From assembly GCA_029781975.1 (NCBI GenBank), contig JAKOVQ010000005.1, forward strand, positions 62,001-126,000: DNA of 64,000 bases, written 5' to 3'. The translations under genes were made by a program, and so were the position numbers. The notes beneath the pieces are model-generated. The model did not search any database and had not been told where the DNA came from. It worked only from the letters and a program-made list of their open reading frames with translations. Positions 2,105 to 29,130 of the stretch are shown here, piece after piece. Numbering within the stretch: the first letter of the stretch is position 1; each line of letters opens with the position of its first letter. This DNA is from Acidobacteriota bacterium. Lineage in GTDB: Bacteria; Acidobacteriota; Thermoanaerobaculia; UBA5066.

Positions 2105-2192
2105 GCGAAACGCCTCGGTGCGATCGAGGAGGCCCGGCACGCCCCGGCTCGGCCCGGGCCTCCGACGCGGGGACCGGAGGCAGGAGGAACAG

Positions 2193-3005
2193 ATGTCGAC
2201 ACCGAAGAGCCTTCTGGACGACGGCAACCTCGGCGGCGCCCTGGAGCAGCTGACGAAGGAGGTCCGGTCCGACCCGACGAACCTCCAGCTCCGGACCTCC
2301 CTCTTCGAGCTCCTCTCCCTCACCGGGGAGTGGGACCGGGCCGAGAAGCAGATCCAGGCGACCGCCCAGGAGGGGAACCCCCAGTCGCAGATCGCGGCCG
2401 GGGTCTACCGCGCGAACCTCCAGGCCGAGCGGGACCGGGCGCAGGTCTTCGCCGGGAAGGCCCGGCCCCAGCTCCTTCGCCCCGCCCCGGAGTACGTCGA
2501 GCTGCACCTCTCGGCCCTCCAAAGGATCGGGGAGGGGAAGCTGGAGGAGGCCCGGGCCCTCCTCGACCGGGCCGAGGAGGAGCGCCCCGCCCTCCCCGGG
2601 AAGGCCGGGGAGCGCGCCTTCGAGGACTTCCGCGACTACGACGACCGGACGGGCGGCGTCCTGGAGATGGTGGTGAAGGGGAAGTACACCTGGCTCCCGC
2701 TGGAGCAGCTCCGCCGGATCGAGATCACCCCGCCGAAGAAGCTCCGCGACCTGATCTGGCCGGGCGCCCGCGTCGAGGCGGACGACGGCACCTCGGCCGA
2801 CGTCTTCCTCTTCGGCCTCTACGCCGGCACGCCCGCCTACCCGGAGGACCGCGTGAGGCTGGGCCGGATGACGGAATGGAAGGCCCTGTCGGCCGACCTC
2901 CAGGTGGGGGCGGGCCTCCGCTGCTTCCTCCTCGACGAGCACGACGCCGCGATCTTCGAGCTCAAGGAGATCGAGTTCGACGCGAGGGTCGAGCCGACGA
3001 ACTGA
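2193..3005 (+). CDS. tagJ: T6SS accessory protein TagJ (ImpE/SciE family)
   Basis: The 270-residue product matches the ImpE/TagJ family. It has an N-terminal helical, TPR-like region beginning SLLDDGNLGGALEQLTKEVR and continuing to about residue 125. A C-terminal domain follows, with the typical stretch around YTWLPLEQLRRIEITPPKKL and a DLIWPGARV motif. TagJ binds sheath subunits and, in some systems, helps couple them to ClpV. The frame is open further upstream, but the ATG at 2193 has a clean AGGAGG site and lines up with the family N-terminus. It runs opposite to all other T6SS genes here, head-to-head with tssA and converging on hcp. No clpV is visible in the window. Confidence 0.9.
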   Translation: MSTPKSLLDDGNLGGALEQLTKEVRSDPTNLQLRTSLFELLSLTGEWDRAEKQIQATAQEGNPQSQIAAGVYRANLQAERDRAQVFAGKARPQLLRPAPEYVELHLSALQRIGEGKLEEARALLDRAEEERPALPGKAGERAFEDFRDYDDRTGGVLEMVVKGKYTWLPLEQLRRIEITPPKKLRDLIWPGARVEADDGTSADVFLFGLYAGTPAYPEDRVRLGRMTEWKALSADLQVGAGLRCFLLDEHDAAIFELKEIEFDARVEPTN

Positions 3006-3246: not shown

Positions 3247-3735
3247 TCAGCTCGCCTTCATCGTCTTGAGGTCGTAGCCGAACTTGATCGGCCCGCCGAG
3301 CGTCCCGTCCTTCTGCTGCTCCTTGTACTCGTATTCCATCTTCGAGTAGTTGAGCGAAACCTGGTCGACCGGGATCGGAGCGCCCTCTCCCGAGCCGCTC
3401 ACGTTGTACGACGAGACGAGGAGGTCGCTGAAGACCACCTTCAGGTACTTCTGCTGGTCTCCGCCGGCCTTGCGGGCGTTGAGCTCGGCCTTCGGGACGT
3501 GCTTGCCGTTGCAGCAGTGCAGGAAGAGCTTCGGCGTCGCCTTGCACATCTGCATCGTGAAGTGGAAGTCCTGCATCTGGACCTTCCCCGCGCCGCCGCC
3601 GCCGCCGGCGGCCATCGTCCCGCCCTGCTGCTCGCTCCAGCTCCAGGAGTCGATCTGGATGTGGTTCTTGAACTCCTTGTCCTTGCTCTCGCCATCGATC
3701 CCATCGATCTTCAGAAAGTAGTCAACGGCTGCCAT
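3247..3735 (-). CDS. hcp: Hcp family T6SS tube protein, second copy in transcription order
   Basis: Hcp hexamers stack into the inner tube and bind effectors in their lumen. The 162-residue product starts MAAVDYFLKIDGIDGES, the standard Hcp N-terminus, and has the DFHFTM and LVSSY strands and the C-terminal KMEYEYKEQ segment. A glycine-rich loop (GGGGGAGKV) lies near residue 45. Two adjacent cysteines (LHCCNGKHV, about residue 75) are absent from the neighbouring copy. The ATG at 3733-3735 has AGGAGG nine bases upstream. It lies 156 bases downstream of the first hcp and may share its transcript. The two copies clearly arose by duplication but have diverged over much of their length. Confidence 0.95.
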   Translation of the reverse strand: MAAVDYFLKIDGIDGESKDKEFKNHIQIDSWSWSEQQGGTMAAGGGGGAGKVQMQDFHFTMQMCKATPKLFLHCCNGKHVPKAELNARKAGGDQQKYLKVVFSDLLVSSYNVSGSGEGAPIPVDQVSLNYSKMEYEYKEQQKDGTLGGPIKFGYDLKTMKAS

Positions 3736-3891
3736 GGTTCGAATCCTCCTGTCGTGCCTTTCTTTCTCTATTCAGCTTCTTGTTCCAGAAGACGACCCGC
3801 CTGCTTCCAGGGGAGGGGGCGAATGCGGGGGCCGGTCCTGGCCGGTTCCGCGGCCGCGAGGCCGGGGAGCCGGCGGATCCCGGGCGCCGGA

Positions 3892-4383
3892 TCAGCCGCC
3901 CTGGTTCTCCTTGACGTTCCACCACATCGGGATGGGTCCGCCCAGCGTGCCGTCGGCGTTCTGCTCCTTGTACTCGAGCTCGATCTTGGTGAAGTTGAGG
4001 GAGATCTGGTCGAGCGGGACCGGGATGTCCCCGTGGCCGGACCCGCCCGAGCTGTAGGACGACACGAGGAGGTCGGTGAACTTGATCTTGAGGTACTCCT
4101 GCTGGTCCTTCCCGGCCTTCCGCGCGATGAAGGTGGCGTTCTTGATGTGCTCGCCGTTCGCGCAGGCCCCCATCAGCTTCGGCGTCGCCTTGCAGGCCCG
4201 CATCGTGAAGTGGAAGTCCTGCATGGAGACCTTCCCGGCGCCACCGCCCCCGCCGACGCGGGAGCTGCCGGTCTGGTGTGCTCCGAAGTTGAAGGCGAGG
4301 ACCTCGATCTCGTTCGAGTGCTTGCTGTCCTTGCTCTCGCCGTCGATCCCGTCGATCTTCAGAAAATAGTCGGTCACTGCCAT
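3892..4383 (-). CDS. hcp: Hcp family T6SS tube protein, first copy in transcription order
   Basis: This 163-residue Hcp starts MAVTDYFLKIDGIDGES. It shares with its neighbour the glycine-rich loop (GGGGGAGKV), the DFHFTM strand, the LVSSY strand and the IELEYKEQNADGTLGG end. In place of the CC pair of the other copy it has a single cysteine (GACANGEH). The ATG has AAGGAGA nine bases upstream and a good promoter about 40 bases beyond. A hairpin separates it from tagF, so hcp expression is probably set apart from the structural operon, as expected for the most abundant T6SS part. Confidence 0.95.
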   Translation of the reverse strand: MAVTDYFLKIDGIDGESKDSKHSNEIEVLAFNFGAHQTGSSRVGGGGGAGKVSMQDFHFTMRACKATPKLMGACANGEHIKNATFIARKAGKDQQEYLKIKFTDLLVSSYSSGGSGHGDIPVPLDQISLNFTKIELEYKEQNADGTLGGPIPMWWNVKENQGG

Positions 4384-4521: not shown

Positions 4522-5727
4522 TCACGCGCCTTCGAGGAGCTTCGAGAGCGGGTCGTCCCAGCCGGAGAGAGGAGCGGAAGAAGCCGCTGGGGGAGCGGGT
4601 TTCGGCCCCGCCGTGCCTTCGCCCGCCGCTGCCGCGCTTCCGTCCGCGGGCGCGCCCGCGGAGATTTCCGTGACGCTCGCCGAAGCGTCGGAGAGGGCCG
4701 ACGCCGCCGCGCCGGATCCCTCTTTCGAGGGGGGTACGGACTCGGCCTCGAGCGGCGCGGGCGTCTCGGACGGCTTCGGAGGCGCGGGCTCCGCGTCGTC
4801 GCTCCAGCCTTCCGGCTGCGGCGCCGGCCCCAGCTCCTCGACGAACTCGTAGTCGGTGCTCCACGGATGGAGGAGGAGGAAGTCCTCGGGCCGCACGTCG
4901 CGGAAGAAGAGGACGGCGCGGCCCCGCTCGCCGGACCGCTCGAAGAGGAACCCCTTCAGGGCGCCGTCCCGCAGGGCGTTCCGCTCCTTGAGCCAGGCGA
5001 TCCAGAACTGGAGCTGCAGCTCCGGGGGGAGCTTCTCGCCGATCGGGATCCGGATGGCGCCCGGCCCCTCGTCGGCCGCGGCCGCGACGTGCTCGGGCAG
5101 CTCCTTCAGGAAACGGGGCCACAGGGTCGCGGCCTCCTTGCCGAAGACGCCGGCGGCGAACTCGCCCACGGAGATCTCCGCCCCGACGTCCACGAGGTCC
5201 TTCGCGATCCTCCCCGCGCTCCGGATCGGCAGGCTGATGCGCGAGCCGCGGAACGTGGCGTAGAGGTTCCCGAGCGTCTGCCCCGAGTGGAAGTTCCGCC
5301 GGACGTAGTCGCCCCTCTCGTCGAAGGCGGCGAGGTGCGACAGGGCGACGAACGGGTCCGACGCGGGGCGTCCCGGGGAGAGCGACGCGAAGAGGGTGAA
5401 GGGGAACGGGCGGAGCCCCCCCTCGTCGTGGCTCCCCCAGAGCGTCCCCGCGATGACGCGCCGGGAGGCGGGCAGCGGCAGGAGGAAGCCGTGGCGGGGG
5501 ATGACGACCGCCTTGTAGCCCTCCTGGTAGGCCCAGCGGCGGGAGAAGCCGTTCCCGATCCACTCCCGGAACTCCTTGGCTCCCTCGTCCGCCAGGCCCG
5601 CCTGGATGAAGTCCTTGTAGATCGGGAGCTTTCCGTAGAGGTGGAGGGGGACGACGTCCGCGCGGCCCGTCGGCTCGTCCCCCCCCGCACCCGAGAGGCT
5701 CCGCTTCAGGAGATCGAAGAGACCCAC
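4522..5727 (-). CDS. tagF: T6SS-associated protein TagF
   Basis: The 401-residue product carries the TagF domain in its first 260 residues. Diagnostic segments are HLYGKLPIYKDFIQAG near residue 30, RRWAYQEGYKAVVIPRHGFL, and a later WIAWLKERNALRDG. In Pseudomonas TagF is a post-translational brake that acts on Fha and holds T6SS firing off. After about residue 300 the chain becomes a Pro/Ala/Ser-rich tail with no recognised domain. The GTG start at 5727 has a GAGG site and lies seven bases after the tssM stop, so it is the last gene of the tssJKLM operon. The nearby FHA and kinase-like genes fit a TagF/Fha control circuit. Confidence 0.9.
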   Translation of the reverse strand: MGLFDLLKRSLSGAGGDEPTGRADVVPLHLYGKLPIYKDFIQAGLADEGAKEFREWIGNGFSRRWAYQEGYKAVVIPRHGFLLPLPASRRVIAGTLWGSHDEGGLRPFPFTLFASLSPGRPASDPFVALSHLAAFDERGDYVRRNFHSGQTLGNLYATFRGSRISLPIRSAGRIAKDLVDVGAEISVGEFAAGVFGKEAATLWPRFLKELPEHVAAAADEGPGAIRIPIGEKLPPELQLQFWIAWLKERNALRDGALKGFLFERSGERGRAVLFFRDVRPEDFLLLHPWSTDYEFVEELGPAPQPEGWSDDAEPAPPKPSETPAPLEAESVPPSKEGSGAAASALSDASASVTEISAGAPADGSAAAAGEGTAGPKPAPPAASSAPLSGWDDPLSKLLEGA

Positions 5728-5734
5728 GGCCGCC

Positions 5735-8700
5735 TCACCGCGCCAGGATGCCGGGCATCGGCTCGTCGAAGGCCAGCTCGAAGACCCCTTCGAGCGGCTC
5801 GTCCCGCTTCTGCGCGTTCGGGATCTGGACGCGGATGGTCCAGATCTTGTCCTTGTCGCGCTCCTTCTCCGGGTCGTCGCCCCACTCCCGCCGCTCGCGG
5901 TCCTCGGCCGCGATCCTCACGAAGTAGAAGAACTTCAGCGGGCCTCCGTAGATGTCGAGGCTCCCGGTCCAGCCGTCCTTCGACTCCTCGTCGCGCCCCG
6001 TGATGGAGATCGGGGCGTCGGGAGGGCCGAGGCGCCAGACGTAGGGGTTCGGCGACCGGCCGGTCTTGAAGTCGGTCGACGGCCGGACGACGACGTTCCG
6101 GTCGAAGAGGAAGAGGGCGTTGACGCGGTCGCCCATGAACCGCTTGCCCGGGCTCGGCGTGAAGTTGGTCACCGGCCGGATCTCGATCTTGTGCTCCTTG
6201 ATGACGGAGGACCCGCGGGCGCCGGCGCCGCCGAAGATGAAGACCTGCCAGCCGCGTCCCACCGCGAGGAGGGGCCGGTTGGCGTCGCCGACGAAGTCGA
6301 AGTCGGGCTCCCAGCCCCAGAGGATCGGGTCGATCGCGTACTCGTCGGCGAGCGCGCCCACGTCCGACAGCGGCCCGGAGAAGTGGGTCTGGCCGATCGT
6401 CGGGAGGTCGATCCTGTAGGTCGCCGTGTTGCCGGCGCCCCCCTGCTTGAAGTAGGAGCCGTCCGCGTACTTGACCCGCTCGGTCCGAAGCTGGGCTTCC
6501 CCGATGAACGGGAACTGCCCCATGCACTGCTCGCGCAGCCGCTTCACCACCGGCTCGGCGGCCTGCTGGAACGACGGGCGGATCGCGTCGCGGATGAGGT
6601 TCGCCCCCTTCCGCTCGACGAGCTCGAGCGAGGAGCGGTACTGGCTCCGCCTCACGACCGGGTTGCGCGAGAAGGCGTGGTAGCCCTTCAGCGACACCTG
6701 GTCCTGGTGCGTGGAGAGCTGCCGCCACGCCTTCAGCTCCTGGTCCGACAGCGGCAGGACGTTGTTCTTGAACTGGTTGACCGCGGCGATGACCTCCTGG
6801 GGAGCCTTCGCCGCGGGGGCGCGGGCCGCGCGGCTCGCCCCCTGCTTGCTCCGGTAATAGTCGAGGATCCGGCCGAGGTAGCGGGTGTTCTTCCCCGCCA
6901 TCATCTCGACCTCCGCCTGCGTCAGGGCCCCGGCCGGGTCGCCCGCCGGGAGCGACGCGGCCTCCTCGCCCCCTCCGCCCCCCTCGGGGCTCCAGCGCTG
7001 GATCACCTGCTGGAAGGTCCGCCAGCTCTGAGCCTGCTGGACGGCCTGGACGGGGACGTAGAAGCCCCCGCCGCCCGTCCGCACGGGCCGCCCCGAGAAG
7101 CGGTCGATGTACCGGACGAGGTACTGGTACATCAGGTCGCCGAGCGCCGCGCCCATCTGCTGGACGTCGGTCCGGGTGTTGACCTTGGCGTTCTCGGTGT
7201 CCGAGATGGCCGTGACGCCGAAGTCGACCATCGCCAGCGCGTGCGCCTTGTTGAAGCAGAAGGCGTCGCAGCCGGGCCCGATCTCCTTCTCGAGGTAGGT
7301 CTGCGTGTAGGGGATGGTCCGGTAGATCAGCGCGAGGGTCGGCGTCCGGTCGACGAACGCCTGCAGCTGGGTCGCCTTGAAGGCGTTGTCCCCCTGGGCG
7401 TCCGGCGGGATCGCCGGTATCGCCTTGGCGTTCGCGATCGCCGCGTCGCGCTCGGCGCGCTGCTTCGTGTTGAAGTCCTCGAGCGTCTTCTTCCGGTCGA
7501 GCGACGACGACTTGGCGGCCGCGTCCACCAGGACCTGGTCGGGCTTCTCGTTCGCCTTGAAGGCGTCGAGGTCGGCGTAGTCGGAGATGGCGACGAGCAT
7601 CGGCGAGAGGGCGGCCGCCGACGGCGTCCACGCCTTCTTCGCCTTGTTCGCCGGGTCGTCCTGCACGAGGTAGGCGTACTGGGTGCTCGTCGAGTTGAGC
7701 GTGAGGTAGTCCGCCTTCATCTGGCCGACGATCTGCTCGCGCCTGTTCTCGTTGACGAGCGCGGGCATCACCGGCTTGTAGGGGAGGATCTTGTCGTAGT
7801 CGACGCGGAACCACCTCTCCCACGCGTCCGGCGTGAGCCCCGGGAAGTCGACCGAGGCGACGCGCGGCGTGGCCAGGTGCTTCGTCGTGTCGTCGTAGAT
7901 CTTCTTGAACTCCTTCCCGGTCCCCGCGGCGCGCGCGAGGAGGGAGGTCGACGTCGGGTCGTCGGCCACCGCGATCAGCTCGCGGTACTTGCCGGCGTAG
8001 AGCCCGAGGAGGAGGTTCAGCTTGAAGTCCCAGCGGAGGAGGTTCGAGACGGTCCAGTAGTCCTCGAACTTCCGCACCGCGCGGTCGGGCCCGGGGAGCT
8101 TGAGCTTCTCGGCGTCGGCCCGGTCCTTCACGACGGACGCGAGGATCAGGTCGGGCGTGCCGTCGCTCTGGACCTGGGCCGCCCACTCGTCCACCTCGGC
8201 CGACCGGGCGGTGTACGGGACCCCCTTGGTCGCCAGGATCAGCGGCACCGTCGCCGCGCCGAGCTTCAGCTCGTCGGGCTTGACGATCGGCTTGTCGCCC
8301 GGGAAGGGCTTCTGGATGGCGACCCAGCGGAGGTGGTTCTCGAACGCCGGGAAGAACTGGGCGCGGTAGTCGACTCCCTTCTCCCAGTCGAGAGCCCCGA
8401 GCCGGGCCTCCGCGTCGACGAGGACGGGTCCGGCCACCTTGTCGAAGTAGAGCTTCCTGTTGACCTTCGTGAGCAGCTCGGCGAGCTCGCTCGACTTGGC
8501 GCCCCGGAAGAACATCAGGAAGAGGAGCGACTTCTTCGAGATCCGCTGCTGGTCGTCGTAGAGGCTCCGGGAGATGGCGTAGGCGTCGGCGATCCGGCAC
8601 GGGGTCTTCCCCGTGACGCACTCGTTCGCCTTCTGGACGTGCTCCTTGATCGGCGTGAGGTAGCGCCTGAGCGACAGGTACGGGACGATCAGCCCCAGGA

Positions 8701-10048
8701 CGACCATCAGGACGATCGCGGCCGAGAGGGCCCAGACCGTGATCCTCACCTGCTTCTCGCGCTTCTCGGCCGCGCGGGTCCGGGCGATGAGCCCCTGCTC
8801 GGGGAAGACCTTCTTCTCGTAGAAGTCCTTGATGAAGAAGGCGCGCGAGCGCTTGAAGATCTGCTCGAGGTTCTCGATCGCCCCCTCGCCCGACCCGCCG
8901 AGGAGCTCGCGGGTGGCGCGCGCGATCGGCTTGCCCTGCTGGACGCCCGAGGAGATGTAGAAGCCGCGGAACGAGAACGGCTCGTCGTACCGGGTCTCGA
9001 CGAAGATCCCCTGGAAGTAGCGCTTGATCGGCTCCCTCAGGGCCCGGAGCTCCTCGGGGAAGACGAAGATCCGGTCGACGTTCTGGACGATCTCCTCGTT
9101 CGCGGTGAAGCGCAGGCGCAGCTTGTGGATCCGCGTCAGCATGTCGTCGAACGCGCCGTCGAACGACTTCAGGTCGTAGCTCTTCTCCGGCCCCAGCTGG
9201 TTCGACCACCCGACGAGCTGCTTCTGGTCGACGGGGTCGAGCTTGGAGAAGAACTCCGAGAAGCCGAGGATCCGGTCCGCCTTGGTGAACATGACGAAGG
9301 TCGGGAACCGGATCTCGAGGACCCGCTGGAGGTTGATCAGCTTCGCCCGGATGTTCGCGGCCTTGCGGTCCTGCTCCTCGGGCGTGTCCTCGAGGAGCGA
9401 GGTCGCCGGGATGACGACGAGGACGCCGTTGATCGGGCAGTACTTCCGGAACCGCTTGATGAGCTTGAGGAAGCTCGACCACTCGGAGGCGTCCGGGGCG
9501 TTCTCCTCCTGGAAGGTGAAGCGGCCGGCGGTGTCGAGGATCACCGCCTCGTTCGCGAACCACCAGTCGCAGTTCCGCGTGCCGCCCGTGCCCGAGAGCC
9601 CGTCGTTGCCGACCGGGAACTCGAGGCCGGAGTTCTTCAGCGTCGTCGACTTGCCCGACTGCGGCTCGCCGATGAGGAGGTACCACGGGAGGGAGTAGAT
9701 CGAGAGGCCGGTCCCCTGGAGCTGCTTGACCGCCTCGTTCCACTTCGTCGAGAGCTCCTTGAGGGCCTCGCGGACCTCCTGCTTGGAGGCCCCGCCTCCG
9801 CGCTCCGAGTCGCGCTTGAGCTCCCCGGCGAACTGGTCCCCCTTCCTCTTGTCGCCCCGCTTGACGAACTCGTCGAAGACGAAGACCGCGACGGCGATGA
9901 AGATGATCCCGCCCATCACGGCCCACCAGTACTTCCCGAGCCCCATGGCCCGCGTGATGACCAGGGCCAGCGGGAGGACGATGAAGACGGCGCCGATCGT
10001 CCGGACGGGCTTGGGGAGGCGCTGGAGGAAGTCGAGAAGCTCGTACAC
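5735..10048 (-). CDS. tssM: T6SS membrane complex protein TssM (IcmF)
   Basis: TssM spans the inner membrane and periplasm and, with TssL and TssJ, anchors the T6SS. At 1437 residues it is slightly longer than most homologues. Two membrane segments lie at about residues 17-33 and 41-58. A cytoplasmic NTPase domain follows with an intact Walker A motif (GEPQSGKST, residues 127-135). A third membrane segment lies near 425-450, followed by the long periplasmic domain. The end of the chain (VFELAFDEP) resembles the beta-rich C-terminus that contacts TssJ. The start is GTG at 10048, directly after the tssL stop. A Gln/Gly/Ala-rich stretch around residues 1000-1070 may be a linker. Confidence 0.95.
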   Translation of the reverse strand: MYELLDFLQRLPKPVRTIGAVFIVLPLALVITRAMGLGKYWWAVMGGIIFIAVAVFVFDEFVKRGDKRKGDQFAGELKRDSERGGGASKQEVREALKELSTKWNEAVKQLQGTGLSIYSLPWYLLIGEPQSGKSTTLKNSGLEFPVGNDGLSGTGGTRNCDWWFANEAVILDTAGRFTFQEENAPDASEWSSFLKLIKRFRKYCPINGVLVVIPATSLLEDTPEEQDRKAANIRAKLINLQRVLEIRFPTFVMFTKADRILGFSEFFSKLDPVDQKQLVGWSNQLGPEKSYDLKSFDGAFDDMLTRIHKLRLRFTANEEIVQNVDRIFVFPEELRALREPIKRYFQGIFVETRYDEPFSFRGFYISSGVQQGKPIARATRELLGGSGEGAIENLEQIFKRSRAFFIKDFYEKKVFPEQGLIARTRAAEKREKQVRITVWALSAAIVLMVVLGLIVPYLSLRRYLTPIKEHVQKANECVTGKTPCRIADAYAISRSLYDDQQRISKKSLLFLMFFRGAKSSELAELLTKVNRKLYFDKVAGPVLVDAEARLGALDWEKGVDYRAQFFPAFENHLRWVAIQKPFPGDKPIVKPDELKLGAATVPLILATKGVPYTARSAEVDEWAAQVQSDGTPDLILASVVKDRADAEKLKLPGPDRAVRKFEDYWTVSNLLRWDFKLNLLLGLYAGKYRELIAVADDPTSTSLLARAAGTGKEFKKIYDDTTKHLATPRVASVDFPGLTPDAWERWFRVDYDKILPYKPVMPALVNENRREQIVGQMKADYLTLNSTSTQYAYLVQDDPANKAKKAWTPSAAALSPMLVAISDYADLDAFKANEKPDQVLVDAAAKSSSLDRKKTLEDFNTKQRAERDAAIANAKAIPAIPPDAQGDNAFKATQLQAFVDRTPTLALIYRTIPYTQTYLEKEIGPGCDAFCFNKAHALAMVDFGVTAISDTENAKVNTRTDVQQMGAALGDLMYQYLVRYIDRFSGRPVRTGGGGFYVPVQAVQQAQSWRTFQQVIQRWSPEGGGGGEEAASLPAGDPAGALTQAEVEMMAGKNTRYLGRILDYYRSKQGASRAARAPAAKAPQEVIAAVNQFKNNVLPLSDQELKAWRQLSTHQDQVSLKGYHAFSRNPVVRRSQYRSSLELVERKGANLIRDAIRPSFQQAAEPVVKRLREQCMGQFPFIGEAQLRTERVKYADGSYFKQGGAGNTATYRIDLPTIGQTHFSGPLSDVGALADEYAIDPILWGWEPDFDFVGDANRPLLAVGRGWQVFIFGGAGARGSSVIKEHKIEIRPVTNFTPSPGKRFMGDRVNALFLFDRNVVVRPSTDFKTGRSPNPYVWRLGPPDAPISITGRDEESKDGWTGSLDIYGGPLKFFYFVRIAAEDRERREWGDDPEKERDKDKIWTIRVQIPNAQKRDEPLEGVFELAFDEPMPGILAR

Positions 10049-10051
10049 GGC

Positions 10052-10726
10052 CTAGACCCCCATCGCGTCGGCGTAAGCCCGGATGTCGCCCATCAGGGTG
10101 CTCCAGAGGAGGATCGTGATGATCCAGTAGAGGATCAGGAAGCCGACGCCGATGATCGCGACGCGCCCGAGGGTGACGACCGGGTTGAAGCGCTTCGCCA
10201 GCCCCGGCGAGACGTGGTAGGCCTCGGGGGTGATCTTGTCCCCCGAGGTCGCGAGGTAGTCCGCGAGGAGGCGGTAGACGTTCTTCCTCACCTCCGCGAG
10301 CTTCTCCGGCCGCTCGCGGTACTTGCCCCGGAACCCCAGGGCGAGCCCCGCGTAGATGATGCCGGCGAGCTCCACGTCCTCGGGACGGAGCTCCTTGGCG
10401 ATCGCGAAGAACTGGTCCCCGCCGATGTTCGACCGGAAGTACTTCTCCTCGAAGATCCGGTCCTGCCACTCGCGGGAGAACTCCCAGCCCGAGTAGATCA
10501 GGATCTCGTCCGCGAGGACGACGAGCGGGTACCGGGCCTGGTCGTACAGGGCCTGCAGCCGCGGGTCGCTCCGGACCTCGGCCGCCTGGTCGCGGAAGAT
10601 CTCCTCGAGGTCTGCAGCGACGTCGTCGATCTCCACGCGGATCCCCTTGCGGACCTTCTGCCGGAACGCCGAAAGGAAGAGGAACTCCCTCGAGGCGACG
10701 CGGAACAGCTCCTGCACGTAGTCCAT
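10052..10726 (-). CDS. tssL: T6SS membrane protein TssL (DotU family), no peptidoglycan-binding domain
   Basis: The ATG at 10724-10726 gives a 224-residue TssL. The DotU domain fills the cytoplasmic part, with the signature YPLVVLADEILI and a later GYRGKY-like LGFRGKYRERPEKL. A single C-terminal membrane anchor lies at about residues 190-215. There is no OmpA-like peptidoglycan-binding extension, so cell-wall anchoring must come from another protein if it occurs. The frame is open far upstream into tssK, but translation upstream of this ATG gives arginine-rich shadow sequence only. The ATG follows the tssK stop by two bases, which implies coupling. tssK-tssL-tssM is a conserved order. Confidence 0.94.
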   Translation of the reverse strand: MDYVQELFRVASREFLFLSAFRQKVRKGIRVEIDDVAADLEEIFRDQAAEVRSDPRLQALYDQARYPLVVLADEILIYSGWEFSREWQDRIFEEKYFRSNIGGDQFFAIAKELRPEDVELAGIIYAGLALGFRGKYRERPEKLAEVRKNVYRLLADYLATSGDKITPEAYHVSPGLAKRFNPVVTLGRVAIIGVGFLILYWIITILLWSTLMGDIRAYADAMGV

Positions 10727-10728
10727 GG

Positions 10729-12090
10729 TCAGTTGCCTCCGGGCTTCGTGATGATGTACAGGGCGAACTTGAGCTTCGGGTCGAGCGCGTCGGAGAGCGC
10801 GACGACCTTCTCCTTCGTCACGTTCGTCCAGTACGGCCCTTCCTTCTCGACCTTGAAGTAGAAGTAGTCCTCGCGCTGCGGCAGCCCCGTCGGGGTCCGC
10901 TTCATCATCTCGAGGTCCAGGCCGAAGAGCCGGCGCTGGCGCAGGATCGGGATGTCGCGGACCGAGCCCATCTTCATGGTGATGATCCGGTTGCGCAGCT
11001 CCTTCTCGTCGCTCTGCGTCTCGATGCAGAGGTAGATCTCGGTCTTCGGCTCGAGCCACTCGTCCATCAGGTCGGCGCAGAGGAGCTCCTCCCTCAGGAC
11101 GAACTCGACCTTGACGAAGCGCGAGGCGACGATCTTCTCGAGGAGCGCCTCGATGACGCGGCACGTCTCGTAGAAGCAGGGGCCGAGCTTGTCGTGGTCG
11201 TACGTCGGGATGACGATCGCCTTCCGCCCGTCGTCGAAGATCGAGAGCTCCCCCGCCAGGCGGCAGAACTCCGTGTAGACCTGGAACGGGTGGACCCGAG
11301 GGATCCGGGTCAGCTGCTGGAAGAGGAAGAGGAAGCTGCCGAGGATCTGGAGCTTGATGATGGTCTGCCAGCCCGAGGTCCCCTCCGACTGGACGGTGAG
11401 GCGTCCGGACGCCACGTCCGACAGGAGGATCCGGTGCTTGGCCTCGAGCCGGTTCGTGACGCCGTCGCACAGGGCCTGGAGCGCCCGCGCGGCGCCGATC
11501 TCGGTGACCGACGGGATGAACTCGCGCGAGAGGACGGGCGCGTTCCGCCCCGAGCCCGAGCGCTCGACGACGGCCACCTCGAGGCACTCGTAGCCCTCCT
11601 GGCTCTCGCTCCCGAAGATGAGCCGGCCGTTGCAGCGCTTGATCCCGACGGGCTGCGGGTTGCCCCCCGTGTTCTCGTCCAGCTGGTCCGCGTTCTCGGC
11701 GATCCAGCGCCGGTCCTGCCCGCCCGCGCTCTCGCCCGGGGCGAAGACGTTCGGCGCCGCGTCCCGCCGCGCCGGGACGCCGAGGAAGACGCGCATCTTC
11801 CCGCCGGCCCGGTCGAGCTCGTTCTTGAAGCCGCGCGGCGAGACGTGCAGGGTCGACCCGAAGTCGAGCGCCGTCCCGTCCTTGAGCTTCAGCGAGGCGT
11901 CCTTGATCTCGAAGACGAAGTTCTCCAGCTGGTCCGGCGCCACGTCGAGCGACGCCAGGCCGTACGAGAAGGGCTGGACCCTCTGGATCTCCCGGGCGAG
12001 GGCCTCCTCCCGGTAGCGCTCGGCGGTCTGGAGGTGGTGGGGCCTCAGGAACATCCCCTCGGCCCAGAGGACCTGCGGCGTCTTCTTCAT
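10729..12090 (-). CDS. tssK: T6SS baseplate adaptor TssK
   Basis: TssK forms trimers that link the baseplate (TssF/TssG) to the TssL/TssM membrane complex. The 453-residue product has the family N-terminus VLWAEGMFLRPHHLQ and the expected full length. The C-terminal receptor-binding region is intact, ending near YIITKPGGN. The ATG lies 13 bases after the tssJ stop on the same strand. No frameshift or truncation is seen. Its partners TssE, TssF and TssG are not encoded in the visible window. Confidence 0.95.
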   Translation of the reverse strand: MKKTPQVLWAEGMFLRPHHLQTAERYREEALAREIQRVQPFSYGLASLDVAPDQLENFVFEIKDASLKLKDGTALDFGSTLHVSPRGFKNELDRAGGKMRVFLGVPARRDAAPNVFAPGESAGGQDRRWIAENADQLDENTGGNPQPVGIKRCNGRLIFGSESQEGYECLEVAVVERSGSGRNAPVLSREFIPSVTEIGAARALQALCDGVTNRLEAKHRILLSDVASGRLTVQSEGTSGWQTIIKLQILGSFLFLFQQLTRIPRVHPFQVYTEFCRLAGELSIFDDGRKAIVIPTYDHDKLGPCFYETCRVIEALLEKIVASRFVKVEFVLREELLCADLMDEWLEPKTEIYLCIETQSDEKELRNRIITMKMGSVRDIPILRQRRLFGLDLEMMKRTPTGLPQREDYFYFKVEKEGPYWTNVTKEKVVALSDALDPKLKFALYIITKPGGN

Positions 12091-12103: not shown

Positions 12104-12577
12104 TCACCAGCGCCGCTCGATCGACAGCTCGCGCTCCAGGACCGAGACGAGGACCTTCTGGCCGATCCACTTCTCGCGCGGCAGGACGATGACCGTCTTG
12201 GTGGGGTCGGTGTTCTGGAACTTGTAGTCCGCGATGATCACCAGCTGGCGCTCGCCCTTGGCCACCGGGACGGTCACCGTCTTGTCGCAGGGCCCCGTCC
12301 CGGCGCCCGTCGTGAAGGTGACCGTCTGGAGGCGCCCCTGCCCCTGGATGTTGTAGCGGGTCGAGTCGTAGAACCACTGCTCGCCCTTCTGCTGGATGGC
12401 CTGGGCCTCCTGGTCGGTCGCGCGGATCACGTCGACGGCCAGGGCGAGGCCGCCGTTGATGTCGGGGCCGCAGCGGAACTGGATCGTCCCCGAGCTCGCG
12501 CCGCATCCGGGGAGGACGGCGGCGCTCCCGAGGAGGAGCCCCAGGGCGGCCAGGAGGTTCGTCTTGCGGGTTCTCAT
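12104..12577 (-). CDS. tssJ: T6SS outer-membrane lipoprotein, probable TssJ
   Basis: The product of about 157 residues has a lipoprotein signal: MRTRKTNLL, a hydrophobic stretch, and the lipobox VLPGC. This places it on the outer membrane facing the periplasm. The remainder is beta-rich, and its position (between the FHA gene and tssK) is typical for tssJ. Sequence similarity to well-known TssJ proteins is weak by eye, so the call leans on the lipobox, the size and the context. An in-frame GTG at 12592 is possible, but the ATG at 12577 has GAGG nine bases upstream and gives a normal signal peptide. Confidence 0.75.
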   Translation of the reverse strand: MRTRKTNLLAALGLLLGSAAVLPGCGASSGTIQFRCGPDINGGLALAVDVIRATDQEAQAIQQKGEQWFYDSTRYNIQGQGRLQTVTFTTGAGTGPCDKTVTVPVAKGERQLVIIADYKFQNTDPTKTVIVLPREKWIGQKVLVSVLERELSIERRW

Positions 12578-12581
12578 CGCG

Positions 12582-14702
12582 TCACACCTCACTCGTGTTC
12601 TTTCGAAGCTTCTCGAGCTCCTCCCGGGCGATGCGCGCCACCGCCTGGAGGATCTGGTCCTTGACGACGTCGGGTCCGAGCTCCCGGACCGCGAGCTTAT
12701 AGAGGTCCCACCATTCCGCGGCCTCGCCGCGCAGCTTCCACCCCGCGCTGCGGGGAGCCGACTCGATCGTGCTGGGGTTGATCCGGCGCCAGAGCTTCTC
12801 GAACCAGTCGGTCGGCGCCTGGTGGAAGGCGGCCAGCAGCGCCACCTGCCACCGCTTCACCTCCTCCAGGTACTTGTGGACCCGCTCCGTGTTGACGGCC
12901 TTCCCCTGGTCGAGCGCCGTGAGGAACGACCGGAGCGTCTCGCGGTAGTTCGGCAGGCGGAAGGCGACGGTCTCGTTCCCGGGCATCGTCAGCGACTGGA
13001 CGAGGCCGAGCGTCATCCCCTCCATCGCCAGCGCGTACTCGATGGTCTGCCGCAGGACGACCGCGCTCTTGTCCGAGCTCGCGAGGTCCTCGCCGGTCAG
13101 GAGCGTGTGGACGGAGACGGCGTCCGCCGGGGGGGCCGCCCCCTTGACGCGGGCCGGAGCGGGCGCTTCCGCGGCCTCGCGCTCGCGCGCGCTCTCGAGC
13201 TCCTTGATCTTCCGCTTGAGCCTGGGGACCTCCTCGGCGGGCCCCGGCTCGCCGGCGGCCAGGACCGGGAAGCGGGTCCTCACCAGCTCGAGGAGGAGGC
13301 GCCGGCTCTCCGGGGGGAGAGAGGCGAGCTCCCGGGCAAGCCGCGCCTTCACCGCCTTCCTCCGGTCCGCCGCCGTGCCGAACCGGTACTGCGCGGCGAC
13401 GTCGGCCAGCTCGGCAGCCAGCTCGTGCGCCTTGGCCTCGAGCGCCAGCTCGAGGGGCGTCCGCGGGGCCCAGGCGGGGCCGGCGGGTGCGGGTGCGGCC
13501 GCGGGCGCCGCCGCGGCGGAGACCGCCGACCGCTCCACGGGGCGCCTGACCGACTCCTCGAGCCGCGCGGGCGGGCCGCCGAGGTCGCGCCGCTGCTCCG
13601 GCTGCTCCTCCTCCGGGGGGCGGGCCGCCGCCGGGGAGGGGAGCGCCTCGGAGAGGACCGGCGGCGGCGCGGGAGGGACGGGCGGCGGGACGGGGTGCCG
13701 CTCGTGCACCTCGGAGAGGGCCGACGGGGAGATCATCGTGGTGGCCTTCCCCTTGCCGGTCATCGTCGCGGAGACCCGGATGCCGCTCGGCGGGGTCTCG
13801 TCGCTCGTGTGCCCCCGGTCGCGCCTGCGGGCGTGCTCGGGGACCGGCGCGGCCCCCGACGACTCGACCCGTTCCAGGGTCAGCCCCCGCGCCAGGAGCC
13901 ATGCCCCGACGGGCCCGCCCGGGTCCTGGAGGAGGCCCGCCAGGAGGCGTCGGGCCAGCTGCGGCGTCCGGGCGGAGGGGACGGTCGCGGTCACCTTCGT
14001 CCGGGCGGAGTCGAGGAGGCGCGAGACCCGGGGCGAGACCACCGCCCCGGCGGTGGACGCCGACATCGCCACCGGCTTGCCCAGGATGTCGGCGAGCCAG
14101 GCCTGGGAGCCGGTGTAGAGGGCCTTGGTCCAGAGCTCGGCGAGGGCCTGCGTCCGCGACCAGCCCGAGTCGGCGAACGAGCGGTCGAGCTGCTCGTCCG
14201 GGACCCTGAGGAGCGCGTCGAGGAGGTGCCGGGTGTCGATGTGGCGCTCGCCCCGCCGGCTGGCCGCCTCCGCGGCGAGGGTCAGGACGACCTGCCACGC
14301 CGGGTCCTCCCACGTCGCCACCGAGACGGGCTCGAAGGGAGGAGGCGAGACGAGGGGCTCGGTGACGAAGATCCGGATCGGGGTCAGCGAGACGAGGAAG
14401 ATCTCGCCTTCCGCGACCTCGGCCTCGGCCGTGATCGCCTGTTGCTGGGCGAAGGTGCCGTTGGAGCTCCCCAGGTCCCGGAGGTAGAAGCGGCTCGAGA
14501 CGTACCTCACCTCCGCGTGGCTCCCGGAGACCCCGGCGGCCGCCGAGAGGACGAGGTGGTTCCGCTCCTTGCTCTGGCGGTCGAAGGGGAGGCGGCCGAT
14601 CCGGAGCGTCTGGGGTCCGCTGCGGGCCTCCGCGACGTGCTTGAGCCCCTCCATCGGGCCGAGCCAGACCTCCAGGCCGAGGCTGCGGAACGCCGGGCTC
14701 AC
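12582..14702 (-). CDS. T6SS FHA-domain protein (Fha/TagH type) with Clp-N-like helical repeats
   Basis: The 706-residue product starts with an FHA domain: GR at 36-37, SGSH at 59-62 and DLGSSNGTF at 77-84 are the phosphothreonine-binding landmarks. Residues about 133-280 look like the double helical repeat of Clp N-terminal domains (RHIDTRHLLDALLR, then RTPQLARRLLAGLLQ). A low-complexity Pro/Ala region follows. The C-terminal 170 residues (from about VSVHTLLTGEDL) resemble the conserved tail of T6SS FHA proteins. Fha reads phosphorylation by a T6SS kinase and promotes firing, and TagF can hold it back. The start is GTG at 14702 with no ribosome site, and it overlaps a short upstream ORF by GTGA. 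tssJ follows immediately. Confidence 0.85.
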   Translation of the reverse strand: MSPAFRSLGLEVWLGPMEGLKHVAEARSGPQTLRIGRLPFDRQSKERNHLVLSAAAGVSGSHAEVRYVSSRFYLRDLGSSNGTFAQQQAITAEAEVAEGEIFLVSLTPIRIFVTEPLVSPPPFEPVSVATWEDPAWQVVLTLAAEAASRRGERHIDTRHLLDALLRVPDEQLDRSFADSGWSRTQALAELWTKALYTGSQAWLADILGKPVAMSASTAGAVVSPRVSRLLDSARTKVTATVPSARTPQLARRLLAGLLQDPGGPVGAWLLARGLTLERVESSGAAPVPEHARRRDRGHTSDETPPSGIRVSATMTGKGKATTMISPSALSEVHERHPVPPPVPPAPPPVLSEALPSPAAARPPEEEQPEQRRDLGGPPARLEESVRRPVERSAVSAAAAPAAAPAPAGPAWAPRTPLELALEAKAHELAAELADVAAQYRFGTAADRRKAVKARLARELASLPPESRRLLLELVRTRFPVLAAGEPGPAEEVPRLKRKIKELESAREREAAEAPAPARVKGAAPPADAVSVHTLLTGEDLASSDKSAVVLRQTIEYALAMEGMTLGLVQSLTMPGNETVAFRLPNYRETLRSFLTALDQGKAVNTERVHKYLEEVKRWQVALLAAFHQAPTDWFEKLWRRINPSTIESAPRSAGWKLRGEAAEWWDLYKLAVRELGPDVVKDQILQAVARIAREELEKLRKNTSEV

Positions 14703-14862: not shown

Positions 14863-17052
14863 TCAGCGCGAGCCGGGTGAAAGGGACTCCTCCTCGAGGA
14901 CCTCCAGCAGGATCCCCTGCATCTCCGCGTGGAGCCCCTGCCGGTGGAAGAGGATCGTCCGGAGCTCCGCCTCGATCCGCTCCACCTCCCGCAACGTCTC
15001 GTCGATGCGCGCCGTCGGGTCCTCCGGGGAGAAGTCGCCCGGGGCGGTGCAGAGCGAGAAGCCGGGGATCCGCAGGACGAGGCGAAGCGCCAGGACCACG
15101 GCCCGCTCCCACAGCGCAGGCGGGATCGCGTTCGGCCGGCCCGGGGTCCGGTCGATCTGCTTCCAGAAGACGGAGGAGCGGTCGAAGATCCCCGCGAGCG
15201 CCGGCTCCTCGGCCACGGCCCGCTTCACCCGGTCGAGCGGGTCCCCCTCGGAGCTCCGCTGGGCCGCGCTCGTGACGCGCGCGAGCCCCTGCAGCATCGG
15301 GACGAGCTCGGTCCCCTCGCCGACCGCGAGCGTCCGGAGGAGGACGACGCCGAGGGCGTAGACGTCGGACGGCGCGCCGAAGCGGGGGAAGACCTTGTAG
15401 CGCGCGCCGGGGATCCGCACGCCGAACGTCCGGCGCAGCTTCTTGACCGCGGCGTCGTCGAGCGACAGCGGCTCGGAGAGGAACGCGAGCTCCTCGTAGG
15501 TGGCCGGCTTGTCCGGCTGCTTGCGCAGCGTCACGCTGGCGAGGCCGATCCCGAGAGCCTCGTCCGGGAAGGTGACGTGGATCCAGTCGGGGTCCTCGGG
15601 CTTCGGGAAGAGGCCGTTCGGGTCGGAGAGCCGCCCCTCGAGCCGGACCCGGCGCTCGGGGTCGCCCTCCTCCGGGACCACGTCGGTCACGTAGACGTCC
15701 CCCGGCCGCCTCCCCGCCAGGCGGAACTCGAGCATCTCCGGCGCCGCGTAGGGGAAGAGCGGCTCGTAGGGCGGCAGGACGACGTCGACGCCGAACGCGC
15801 TCGTCCTGGAGGAGGCGGCGACGCCGTGGAGCCTCACCTGGAACGTCCAGAGCGCCGGCAGCGCGTCCCCGGTCCCGTAGGTGTCGACCAGGAGGTGGGC
15901 GGGCTTCACGTCGAGGTGCGGCTGGGCCGCGACCCGGTAGAACTGGAGGACGGCCGAGACCGCCTGGCGGAACGCCGTCACCTTCAGGGCCAGCGCCTCC
16001 ACCGCGTCGAGGCCGGTCCCGTCGTGGCCGAAGAAGAGCCGGCCGTTCGCCGGGAGCGTCTCCTCGAGCCACGCGAGGCGGAGCCGCGCCGAGAGCGTCT
16101 CGAGCGTCTCCGGCGCCCCCGGCGGGACGAGCGACGCCTCGTCCCGCCCGCCGACGAAGTCGGCCCACTCGTCGATCCGGACCGGGGAGAGGCCCGTGAC
16201 GACCACGGGCGACGGGGTGAAGCTGAAGGGGACCAGGCGATCGGTGAACTCGGAGACCGACGCTCCGCGCTCGCGCCTCATCCGGAGCGCCTCCTCGCGG
16301 CAGCCGCTGCAGCCGAACGAGGCGACGCCGTCCTCCTCCCAGTCGCGGACCATGCCGCGGGACAGGGCTTTCAGGAGCTCGTCCGGGCTCCCGACCGGGA
16401 CGCCCCCCCCCTCGACGGGGGCGAACGACCAGAGGGCGAGGTTCGCGTCCGAGCGGGCGCACTCGGGGCACCAGAGGATCCGCTCCAGAGAGTCCCGGTG
16501 CGACGGGAGCTTCCTCGCCGCCAGGAACTCCTCGTCGGCGCAGGTCGAGAGCCCCCCCCGGCACGTCGGGCAGACGGGCTCGACGAAGGTCCGGTCGGCC
16601 CGGCAGTAGAGGAGCGCGGGCAGCTCGGCCAGGGGCCCGTCCTTCCCCCCCGGCTGGATGAGCCGCGGGAAGAGCCGGCTGGTCTCGCGGAGGGTCCGCA
16701 GCCGGTCGCGCTCCTTCTCGAAGCGCTTCGCGAGCGTCTCGTTCGTGGGGCGCCCGGCACTCTCGGCGAGCCCCTCGGGGAAGGCGTTCGCCAGCAGCTT
16801 GACGGCGGCCAGCTCGAGGACGCTGTCCGGGGCGCCGCGGAGGGCGGCGAGGTAGACGCGGGTGGCCCCGTCCTCGGTGGAGAGCGGCAGCGGAACCGGT
16901 CCGAGCTCGTCCGAGCCCGGGACGCTCCCGAGGACGAGGTGCAGGCCGTAGGGAGAGGGGGCGTCCCCCGTCGGGAGGATGCGGGCGGTCTCGAGAGGCT
17001 TCACGCCTGCGCGCTCCCGACGGGCCAGGAACCAGCTGCGATGCGCCAGCAC
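14863..17052 (-). CDS. T6SS-linked kinase-like protein with zinc-ribbon insertion, probably catalytically altered
   Basis: This 729-residue protein has the outline of a Ser/Thr kinase. AAVK at residues 82-85 resembles the ATP lysine motif, FEKERDRLRTL (from 111) resembles helix C, and HLDVKPAHLL (379-388) resembles the catalytic loop HRDLKPxNIL, with Asp381 and Lys383 kept. APE occurs at 447-449 and SDVYALGVVLL (from 562) resembles subdomain IX. Two features are odd. Cysteines at 150, 161, 164, 171, 195, 198, 248 and 251 form zinc-ribbon-like pairs inside the kinase fold. About 115 residues also separate APE from DVYALG. No DFG is found where expected and the catalytic-loop Asn is His. Its place ahead of fha suggests the PpkA role, active or pseudo-kinase. 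No PppA phosphatase is visible. The start (GTG) is uncertain. Confidence 0.7.
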   Translation of the reverse strand: MLAHRSWFLARRERAGVKPLETARILPTGDAPSPYGLHLVLGSVPGSDELGPVPLPLSTEDGATRVYLAALRGAPDSVLELAAVKLLANAFPEGLAESAGRPTNETLAKRFEKERDRLRTLRETSRLFPRLIQPGGKDGPLAELPALLYCRADRTFVEPVCPTCRGGLSTCADEEFLAARKLPSHRDSLERILWCPECARSDANLALWSFAPVEGGGVPVGSPDELLKALSRGMVRDWEEDGVASFGCSGCREEALRMRRERGASVSEFTDRLVPFSFTPSPVVVTGLSPVRIDEWADFVGGRDEASLVPPGAPETLETLSARLRLAWLEETLPANGRLFFGHDGTGLDAVEALALKVTAFRQAVSAVLQFYRVAAQPHLDVKPAHLLVDTYGTGDALPALWTFQVRLHGVAASSRTSAFGVDVVLPPYEPLFPYAAPEMLEFRLAGRRPGDVYVTDVVPEEGDPERRVRLEGRLSDPNGLFPKPEDPDWIHVTFPDEALGIGLASVTLRKQPDKPATYEELAFLSEPLSLDDAAVKKLRRTFGVRIPGARYKVFPRFGAPSDVYALGVVLLRTLAVGEGTELVPMLQGLARVTSAAQRSSEGDPLDRVKRAVAEEPALAGIFDRSSVFWKQIDRTPGRPNAIPPALWERAVVLALRLVLRIPGFSLCTAPGDFSPEDPTARIDETLREVERIEAELRTILFHRQGLHAEMQGILLEVLEEESLSPGSR

Positions 17053-17185: not shown

Positions 17186-18292
17186 ATGTCGGACGCACCG
17201 TCGGCGAGCAAGGGGAAGAGCGGCAGTCGATCTCGCCCCTCCAGCGGGGGGGGGGGGGGACGCTACGGGTCGTACTGGGGCCCGGCCGGGGAGCAGGAGT
17301 CGAGCGCGCTCGCGACGACCTACGTGACGTCGAGCGAGGCGGACTACGTCGCGCGCGGCCGCTGGGGCGACGCGAACTCGTTCGGAGCCGAGACGCTCGT
17401 GGGCCTCGCGGGCCTCGACCGGTCGAGCCGGGTCCTGGAGATCGGGTGCGGCATGGCGCGGGTCGGCCGCGAGATGGCCCCGCTCGTCGGAGAGTGGCAC
17501 GGCGCCGACATCTCCGCCGGGATGCTCGAGCGCGCCGCCCGGAGGACCGCCCACCTGGCGAACGTGGTGCTCCACCCGCTCGGCGAGGACGGCCTCACCT
17601 CCTTCGCCGATGCCTCGTTCGACTTCGTCTATGCCACGACGGTCTTCATGCACCTCGACAAGGAGGACCTCTTCCAGTACCTCGTCGAGATGAGGCGGGT
17701 GCTGAAGGACGGCAGGATGGCCTTCTTCGACACGTGGAACCTGGCGCACCCCGACACCTACCGGCAGTGGCGCCAGAGCCAGCACCACAACCAGGCGGGC
17801 CGCAAGTCCCCGGGGCGGATCCAGTTCTCGACGGCGGCAGAGATCCGGTGCTACCTCGACGACCTCGGGTGGGAGCCGGTCCGCGTCGACGAGGACCGGC
17901 TCCTCCGCGTCCTCTGCCGGAAGGGGGCCGTCCGCCCTCACGAGCCCGACGACGGCCTTCCCCCGTTCGGCTGCGTCGACTTCCCCCCCAACGCCGCCGA
18001 GCTGCCCGGCTCGGTCGGCGTCTGGGGGTGGGCCCTCGACGCCGTCGAACGGGTCGAGCTCGTGGTCGACGGGACCCGGAGCGCCGGGACGTCCCCCCTC
18101 GACGTCCCCCGCCCGGACGTCGCTCCCCTCTTCCCGCGCTACCCCGGCGCGGCGACCTGCGGCTTCCGCATCGAGCTCGACCTCCGCGACCTCGAGCCCG
18201 GGCTCCACACGCTCCAGGCGATCGCGATCGATCGGAACGGGAAGCGGACCGACCTCTCCGGCCAGCACCGCTGCTTCTCCGTGACCCGCTAG
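17186..18292 (+). CDS. SAM-dependent methyltransferase with C-terminal Ig-like domain and a 14-G tract
   Basis: The 368-residue product has a class I methyltransferase core at about residues 65-230: motif I VLEIGCGMARVG, an acidic motif II (GADIS), and FDFVYATTVFMHL. Its substrate is unknown. After about residue 255 comes a segment of the kind seen in bacterial Ig-like (Big_17-type) domains, with VGVWGWALDAVERVELVVDG and a late GLHTLQAIAIDRNG, which is unusual on a cytosolic enzyme. The ATG at 17186 has an AGGGAGG site. Codons 21-25 are an unbroken run of 14 G, so single-base slippage would knock out the frame. The gene diverges from the T6SS operon and converges on the DUF3999 gene. Confidence 0.8.
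   Translation: MSDAPSASKGKSGSRSRPSSGGGGGRYGSYWGPAGEQESSALATTYVTSSEADYVARGRWGDANSFGAETLVGLAGLDRSSRVLEIGCGMARVGREMAPLVGEWHGADISAGMLERAARRTAHLANVVLHPLGEDGLTSFADASFDFVYATTVFMHLDKEDLFQYLVEMRRVLKDGRMAFFDTWNLAHPDTYRQWRQSQHHNQAGRKSPGRIQFSTAAEIRCYLDDLGWEPVRVDEDRLLRVLCRKGAVRPHEPDDGLPPFGCVDFPPNAAELPGSVGVWGWALDAVERVELVVDGTRSAGTSPLDVPRPDVAPLFPRYPGAATCGFRIELDLRDLEPGLHTLQAIAIDRNGKRTDLSGQHRCFSVTR
17246..17259 (+). repeat. 14-base poly-G homopolymer inside the methyltransferase gene
   Basis: Fourteen consecutive G lie within codons 21-25. This is the longest mononucleotide run I noticed in the window and is of a length prone to slipped-strand errors. Gain or loss of one base would move translation out of frame within the first 30 residues. 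It could be a phase-variation switch or a sequencing or assembly length error. Confidence 0.9.
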
Positions 18293-28292: not shown

Positions 28293-28360
28293 CCCGGGAG
28301 CCGGCGGCCGCCCCCGGGTCCGCGTGGCCACGACCCGCCCCCCTGACGCGAGGATCCCTC

Positions 28361-28398
28361 CCGGCCCGCTCCGGATCCGGAGCGGGCCGGTTCGCTTT
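28361..28398 (+). terminator. Terminator downstream of ftsH
   Basis: Bases 28361-28390 form a perfect 30-base palindrome (CCGGCCCGCTCCGGA and its complement) followed by TTCGCTTT. It lies 68 bases after the ftsH stop. A palindromic operator is possible, but the trailing T-rich stretch favours a terminator. Confidence 0.65.
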
Positions 28399-28407
28399 CC
28401 CCGCCGG

Positions 28408-29130
28408 ATGGCGGCGCCCCGCCCCTCCGGCCCCCCCCGGGACCTCCGGCGCTCCGTCCGCCACCCCCTCTTCGGCCACGTCCCGGTCCTGAGCGCCGCG
28501 GACGGAGGAGCCCCCGGCGCCGTCCCGACCTACCGGTTCGACCCGGACTACCGTCCCCCCCTCCCTGCCGGGGCCGTCCGGGGCGACCCGAGGCGGCAGA
28601 TCTTCTGCTGCGACGTCCCGCGCTACTTCTACGTCGACCTCGACCGCACCTGCCGCGACTGCGGCGAGCGGTTCGTCTTCTCGGCCCGGGAGCAGAAGCT
28701 TTGGTACGAGACGCTCGGCTTCCGGCTCGACGCCACGGCCGTCCGGTGCCTCCCCTGCCGGAGGCGCTTCCGCGCCACGCGAGGCGTCGTCCGCGCCGTC
28801 TCGGACGCCTCGCGGGCCCTGGCCGACTCGCCGCACCACCCTCCGGCCGTCCTCGCCTACGCCCGGGCTGCCGTCGCCCACCAGGAGCGGTTCGGCCACG
28901 CGCCCCTCGACGCCGCCCTCGCCGCCCTTCGCGCGCTCGCGCGGAGCGGGGCCGGCCTCCTCGAGGCCCTCTACTGGGAGGGCCGCTGCCACGAGGCGGC
29001 CGGCCGCGCGCGGCGGGCGATCGCCTCGTACGGGCGCTTCGCGGCAGAGGCCGCCTCCTCGCGTCGGCTCGCCGTCCTCCGCCGCGACGCCGCCCGGCGG
29101 AGGACGCTCCTCGAGGAGACGTCCGCGTGA
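28408..29130 (+). CDS. Zinc-ribbon domain protein (zf_Tbcl-like) with helical C-terminus
   Basis: The central segment (about residues 65-120 of this 240-residue product) has CRDCGERFVFSAREQKLWYE, then GF, then CLPCRRRFR. This is the pattern of the probable zinc-ribbon domain PF13451, usually found in short proteins of unknown function. The C-terminal half is alanine-rich and helical, resembling TPR-type repeats (LEALYWEGRCHEAAGRARRA). An earlier GTG at 28324 is in frame but lies before the ftsH terminator, so the ATG at 28408 is preferred. The stop overlaps the folP GTG as GTGA, suggesting coupling. Its insertion between ftsH and folP breaks an otherwise classical order. Confidence 0.75.
   Translation: MAAPRPSGPPRDLRRSVRHPLFGHVPVLSAADGGAPGAVPTYRFDPDYRPPLPAGAVRGDPRRQIFCCDVPRYFYVDLDRTCRDCGERFVFSAREQKLWYETLGFRLDATAVRCLPCRRRFRATRGVVRAVSDASRALADSPHHPPAVLAYARAAVAHQERFGHAPLDAALAALRALARSGAGLLEALYWEGRCHEAAGRARRAIASYGRFAAEAASSRRLAVLRRDAARRRTLLEETSA

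Follow-up and report, generated by a model that had tools for sequence, protein, structure and literature searches.

The window analyzed here is a 64,000-nucleotide stretch of an Acidobacteriota genome (contig JAKOVQ010000005.1), and its minus strand holds a complete type VI secretion system (T6SS) operon opened by a gene for a kinase-like protein of 713 amino acids (PSK; positions 14863 to 17004). Downstream, on the same strand, follow Fha (12582 to 14702), in which Pfam recognized an FHA domain and, below its cut-off, a T6SS FHA C-terminal domain; a 162-amino-acid protein without a Pfam match, at the place usual for TssJ (12104 to 12592); TssK (10729 to 12090); TssL (DotU; 10052 to 10729); TssM (IcmF; 5735 to 10048); TagF (4522 to 5727); two tandem Hcp genes (3247 to 4383); and TssA followed by TssB (350 to 2028). 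The annotation bore out the preliminary description: PSK comes first in a T6SS operon that also encodes an FHA protein and TagF. Beyond the left edge of the window, the cluster continues with TssC, TssF, ClpV, two VgrG, and, beside the two VgrG, a likely T6SS effector in which PAAR is joined to a Peptidase_M91 domain (L027:1326-2684). Inside the minus-strand operon, a plus-strand gene encodes an ImpE protein with TPR (2118 to 3005). Upstream of PSK lies a divergent methyltransferase gene (17186 to 18292; plus strand). A zf_Tbcl treble-clef zinc-domain protein at 28324 to 29130 is unrelated to the T6SS.

The PSK start was set at the GTG at 17004 from the aligned starts of 11 orthologues, with a GGGAG ribosome-binding-site-like sequence upstream. 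The open reading frame first given (14863 to 17052), which is on the minus strand, thus stands except for its start, and all residue numbers are 16 lower than before (Lys85, Asp381, and Lys383 are K69, D365, and K367). The source genome has a single copy. Intact frames in all relatives, together with dN/dS values of 0.09 to 0.28 in close pairs, rule out a pseudogene; PSK is conserved under purifying selection. A Pfam scan gave no match at E 1, the Pkinase (PF00069) gathering score was not reached, and PSK is absent from the 55 Pkinase matches found by Pfam in its own genome. Searches with NCBIfam, PADLOC, and phmmer (the last against the PDB) returned zero matches, and a PDB profile search returned only sub-threshold kinase and unrelated matches (E 0.68 and above). 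Relatives are referred to below, by similarity and gene context, as clade 1 (own family), clade 2 (the f11/f12 relatives), and clade 3 (remote).

Pfam and NCBIfam were silent, but comparison of the PSK family profile with 20 kinase domains of the same genome (hhalign) placed the protein with kinases. The profile of the whole family matched at the catalytic loop (90%); with both inserts removed, the match spanned the kinase domain (97.6% local, 99.1% global), and the score was 91.6, whereas 60 shuffles reached at most 19.4 and the reversed profile 17.1. Unexcised, the profile scored 56.2 versus at most 28.8 for its own shuffles. The excised stretches were picked with motif positions already known, which makes the random-excision control important: random excisions of equal length had a median score of 56 and reached at most 89.5, and other excisions that removed part of the same stretches scored close to 91.6. 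Three separate segments each matched the correct kinase region. Clade 1 alone and clade 2 alone each reached 97 to 98%, and two clade-3 sequences alone only 21%. The order of the motifs (AAVK, HLDVKP, PYAAPE, and DVYALG) is kinase-like and beat shuffling and reversal controls.

An AlphaFold model from 14 sequences (pLDDT 83.7; pTM 0.84) superseded an earlier run with 11 sequences (pLDDT 53), which had matched only barrels. Foldseek gave no match at E 0.001 with the 14-sequence model, so the structural assignment rests on re-alignment of its candidates with VIA-align; among the matches listed, all were kinases, with PknS at the top (Z 15.7, 257 residues, rmsd 4.0) and the IRAK3 pseudokinase also matched (Z 14.6). 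Profile comparison and predicted structure together show that PSK has a protein-kinase fold of the Hanks type with two inserted modules. The earlier proposal that the protein derives from a Ser/Thr kinase is thus supported by profile comparison and by structure prediction, two of the kinds of check suggested with it.

Active Ser/Thr kinases were defined by a glycine loop, the VAIK Lys, the alpha-C Glu, the HRD Asp with its Asn, and the DFG Asp, a set that is incomplete in PSK. A GxGxxG loop was found in none of the 14 sequences of the class, all of which also lack the Asn and the DFG Asp and have the HRD Asp. The beta-3 Lys, K69 (16798 to 16800, minus strand, as are all features of the protein), is kept in 11 of 11 clade-1 members; clade 2 has K, R, or Q at this position, and two of its three members have lost the Lys. 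The alpha-C Glu, E98 (16711 to 16713), is likewise kept throughout clade 1 (11/11) and is lost in clade 2. The catalytic loop reads H-L-D365-V-K-P-A-H370 (15895 to 15918), with the Asp in 14/14 and, as first described, His in place of Asn (14/14). The end of beta-8 and the DFG position lie in VRLHGVA (residues 390 to 396; 15817 to 15837); the DFG place falls right after beta-8 (VRLHG), with G394 where the Asp would be in one register, and none of the 14 sequences has an acidic residue there. The DFG reported as not found has thus lost its Asp, but its position can be placed. Further along are an APE motif (A421-P422-E423; 15736 to 15744; located by hhalign and residue alignment) and DVYALG, the alpha-F DxxxLG motif (15349 to 15366), whose D547 and G552 are invariant. 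The three motifs on which the preliminary description relied are therefore all present and in kinase order. The Lys that it counted among the kinase features (K367, two residues after D365) is present but found only in the window's PSK, its relatives having His, Asn, or Ser.

In the remote relatives, the PSK of L082 keeps HLD, has VDLA at the DFG place, and has lost the catalytic-loop Asn; in L083, the HRD Asp is replaced by Gly (HLG); and in L099, the catalytic loop is unrecognizable. The lineages differ in which residues have decayed, a pattern expected after loss of activity by an ancestral kinase. The lost catalytic features noted before are seen in all 14 sequences of the class, and the pseudokinase scaffold proposed on their account is one that we, too, infer. 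Judged by its residues, PSK would no longer transfer phosphate in the canonical metal-dependent way. A pure scaffold would have no need of the invariant D365 or, in clade 1, of the retained K69 and E98; PSK may bind nucleotide or have an unusual activity.

The two inserts lie apart in the fold. One, between beta-4 and beta-5/hinge (16219 to 16647; delimited by hhalign and AlphaFold), carries a zinc-ribbon-like site, C145-x2-C148 ... C179-x2-C182 (16459 to 16572). The other, a beta-barrel-like insert between APE and alpha-F (residues 431 to 541; 15382 to 15714), was delimited by AlphaFold strands; its PDB matches are to a common barrel arrangement (best Z about 7), and we infer no function from them. 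A zinc ribbon and some 115 extra residues had been described within the kinase fold; both are there, but as separate modules, the barrel of about 110 residues being the one between APE and DVYALG.

A zinc ribbon was defined as two CxxC knuckles about 30 residues apart and conserved as a unit. All four Cys are present in 12 of the 14 sequences and none in the other two (L011 and L062), where they were lost together, and loss of all four at once is expected of a single metal site. The four Cys recur in L082 and L083; L099 lacks the region, which AlphaFold modeled confidently in PSK. By this Cys pattern, the site is real and old, and it may bind zinc. The site is not essential to the role of the family, since three lineages have lost it whole while the gene still lies with the T6SS. 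Three or more CxxC pairs had been counted (residues 150 to 251, earlier numbering); three occur in the window's protein (as in 2 of 20,000 shuffles, with two or more in 77), but only 145/148 and 179/182 are family features. The third (C232/C235; 16300 to 16311), complete within clade 1 in the window's PSK only, lies in the same alignment stretch as a CxxCx5C motif of clades 2 and 3 and is probably a relic of it. That motif follows the zinc ribbon, is intact in most members of clade 2 and in two of clade 3 (L022, L061, L082, and L083), and is a possible second metal or iron-sulfur site.

A single-sequence search found no relatives of PSK beyond its taxonomic family, and an alignment query led to 11 loci. 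The gene is present in 11 of 19 genomes of the order and in 14 of 149 of the class; its relatives number 13 in the class (Thermoanaerobaculia) and three remote ones elsewhere in Acidobacteriota, and all but one are in genomes with T6SS genes. The remote relatives (G439, G185, and G059) came from profile searches outside the class. Matches to G439 and G185 are full length (E 2.8e-162 and 2.5e-172), by construction, as both were included in the profile; G059, outside the profile, matched at E 5.8e-10. No homologue of a remote relative was found on the plasmids searched.

PSK is a conserved component of T6SS gene clusters in Acidobacteriota, tied to them by genomic association. Within the class, TssB occurs in 13 of 14 genomes with PSK (the exception is 75% complete), and 7 genomes have TssB without PSK (Fisher p 6e-13, ignoring relatedness). 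In its own family, PSK is present in all 10 TssB-positive genomes and absent from three TssB-negative ones. Where TssB-positive genomes without PSK were readable, no Fha or TagF match was found around TssK, in stretches often cut by contig ends. In clade 1, fha lies directly downstream of PSK in 10 of 10 informative loci. In clade 2, the gene directly before PSK is a TssC/TssB-like paralogue, next to tssB-tssC; in both genomes examined, fha and tagF are found with tssK at another place. In clade 3, all three remote relatives have PSK just upstream of tssK. The constant neighborhood with fha that had been proposed as a check thus holds for clade 1 and fails in clade 2. For the remote relatives, the evidence of a neighboring FHA-C-terminal-like partner was weak (L099, E 5e-6 with a custom profile; none in L082 or L083; no Pfam match), and we do not claim one.

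In the source genome, the T6SS island ends, on its far side, in a TssC/TssB-like paralogue (G000:C14:44734-46104, L066:3734-5104; VipB, E 1.5e-52; VipA, E 9e-9), to which the paralogue preceding PSK in clade 2 is related. A conserved 259-amino-acid protein of no known family adjoins this island-end paralogue in four genomes. Also beside it in the source genome is a canonical Ser/Thr kinase of 523 amino acids (G000:C14:42265-43836, L066:1265-2836), a candidate for phosphorylating Fha; in G176 and G308, no such kinase was seen beside the paralogue. In G305, a PP2C phosphatase gene (L069:6351-7130, minus strand) is convergent with the TssC-like paralogue and is a PppA candidate. Canonical kinase genes also occur 1.2 kb downstream of PSK in G398 and divergent from fha in G326.

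These data bear on three alternative explanations. PSK might be a decayed PpkA, catalytically dead but still beside fha, with control passed to other kinases or left to TagF alone. Its operon place with fha and TagF is as expected for a phosphorylation pathway, and the window has no PpkA-like kinase directly beside fha; against this, PSK has no transmembrane or periplasmic part, clade-2 PSK lies by the TssC-like paralogue with fha elsewhere, and a canonical kinase occurs near PSK in the same cluster in two remote relatives (24 bp upstream in G059 and about 4.4 kb upstream in G439). The last observation argues that PSK is not simply a decayed PpkA, and we consider this explanation unlikely. The divergent PpkA of the preliminary description, right about a gene encoded with fha in a T6SS cluster, is doubtful for the same reasons and for the missing catalytic set.

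An active atypical phosphotransferase, with D365 as base and a noncanonical residue such as H370 binding or replacing the metal, would fit the invariance of both residues and the clade-1 retention of K69 and E98, as well as the DLHK pseudokinases, predicted ATP binders that keep the HRD Asp without metal motifs (PMC12599244). It is nonetheless improbable, given the general loss of glycine loop and DFG Asp, the absence of E98 and frequent loss of K69 in clade 2, and the decayed loops of L083 and L099. We give very little credence to a metal-responsive switch, in which zinc bound by the ribbon would control the pseudokinase and hence the T6SS: the four-Cys site does extend across clades and to two remote relatives in a confidently modeled region, but L011, L062, and L099 keep the T6SS link with the site lost whole, and Cys alone cannot separate a structural from a sensing site. 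The suggestion that PSK senses through zinc thus keeps its conserved site but finds no support beyond it.

Known systems resemble PSK in part. PpkA, the Ser/Thr kinase of the T6SS threonine phosphorylation pathway, has a kinase fold, and its gene shares a T6SS cluster with fha and tagF, but it is catalytically active, sits in the inner membrane, and has a periplasmic domain (PMC12607579), whereas PSK is soluble (no transmembrane segment; maximum 19-residue hydropathy, 1.71), carries two inserts within the fold, and is without the metal-binding Asp and Asn. MviN with FhaA (ActPs3 family), like PSK, pairs a pseudokinase with an FHA-domain protein; MviN lies in the membrane, serves peptidoglycan synthesis, and has every motif degraded and the activation loop deleted, and its family is often membrane bound (PMC12599244), whereas PSK keeps the HRD Asp, has a long insert after APE in place of a deletion, has no transmembrane segment, and has no sequence match with MviN. 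EssB/YukC is likewise a noncatalytic kinase fold serving a secretion machine, but a different machine, and it is membrane anchored with a short activation loop. The DLHK pseudokinases share solubility, the HRD Asp, and degraded ATP- and metal-binding motifs with PSK; they keep the catalytic-loop Asn, have lost the beta-3 Lys, and are linked to helicase domains (PMC12599244), in contrast to the His, the clade-1 Lys69, and the T6SS association of PSK. PknS of Xanthomonas citri (9EED) shares only the fold, being an active transmembrane kinase that acts on a sigma factor (PMC13147305). None of the papers searched describes a T6SS pseudokinase.

We think it fairly probable that PSK is a soluble cytoplasmic pseudokinase dedicated to an FHA/TagF-type T6SS, where it would serve the Fha branch of posttranslational control as a scaffold or an allosteric switch. 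PSK would bind Fha directly; alternatively, a canonical kinase of the genome would phosphorylate PSK, to which the intact FHA domain of Fha would then bind. The phosphothreonine-binding motifs of Fha (GR, SxH, and NG) are kept in 10 of 10 sequences, which makes such binding plausible. The zinc ribbon and barrel would act as binding surfaces, and PSK would help place or license TssK/TssL/TssM assembly against TagF repression. Fha need not be the direct partner, as clade-2 PSK lies beside the TssC-like paralogue with fha elsewhere. Precedents exist for the separate elements: MviN, once phosphorylated by PknB, recruits the FHA domain of FhaA, and EssB/YukC is the pseudokinase scaffold of the T7SSb (PMC12599244), while PpkA, besides binding Fha, forms condensates to which T6SS parts are recruited (PMC12607579). 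Rather more tentatively, PSK may be an undescribed T6SS accessory of Acidobacteriota, a kinase-derived zinc-ribbon pseudokinase that works beside an active T6SS kinase as a pair, without replacing it, and bridges Fha and the membrane or baseplate complex during its assembly.

Pseudokinase scaffolds are already known from type VII secretion (EssB/YukC), and an FHA-recruiting one is known from mycobacteria (MviN). PSK is a new pseudokinase variant tied to the T6SS and matched in none of the sequence libraries searched. If the proposed role is correct, kinase folds would be usable in T6SS control without catalysis, and PSK would offer a direct test of which part of the PpkA role is essential, phosphorylation or the recruitment of Fha. 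The T6SSs of Acidobacteriota, which have been little studied, would also gain a regulatory part.
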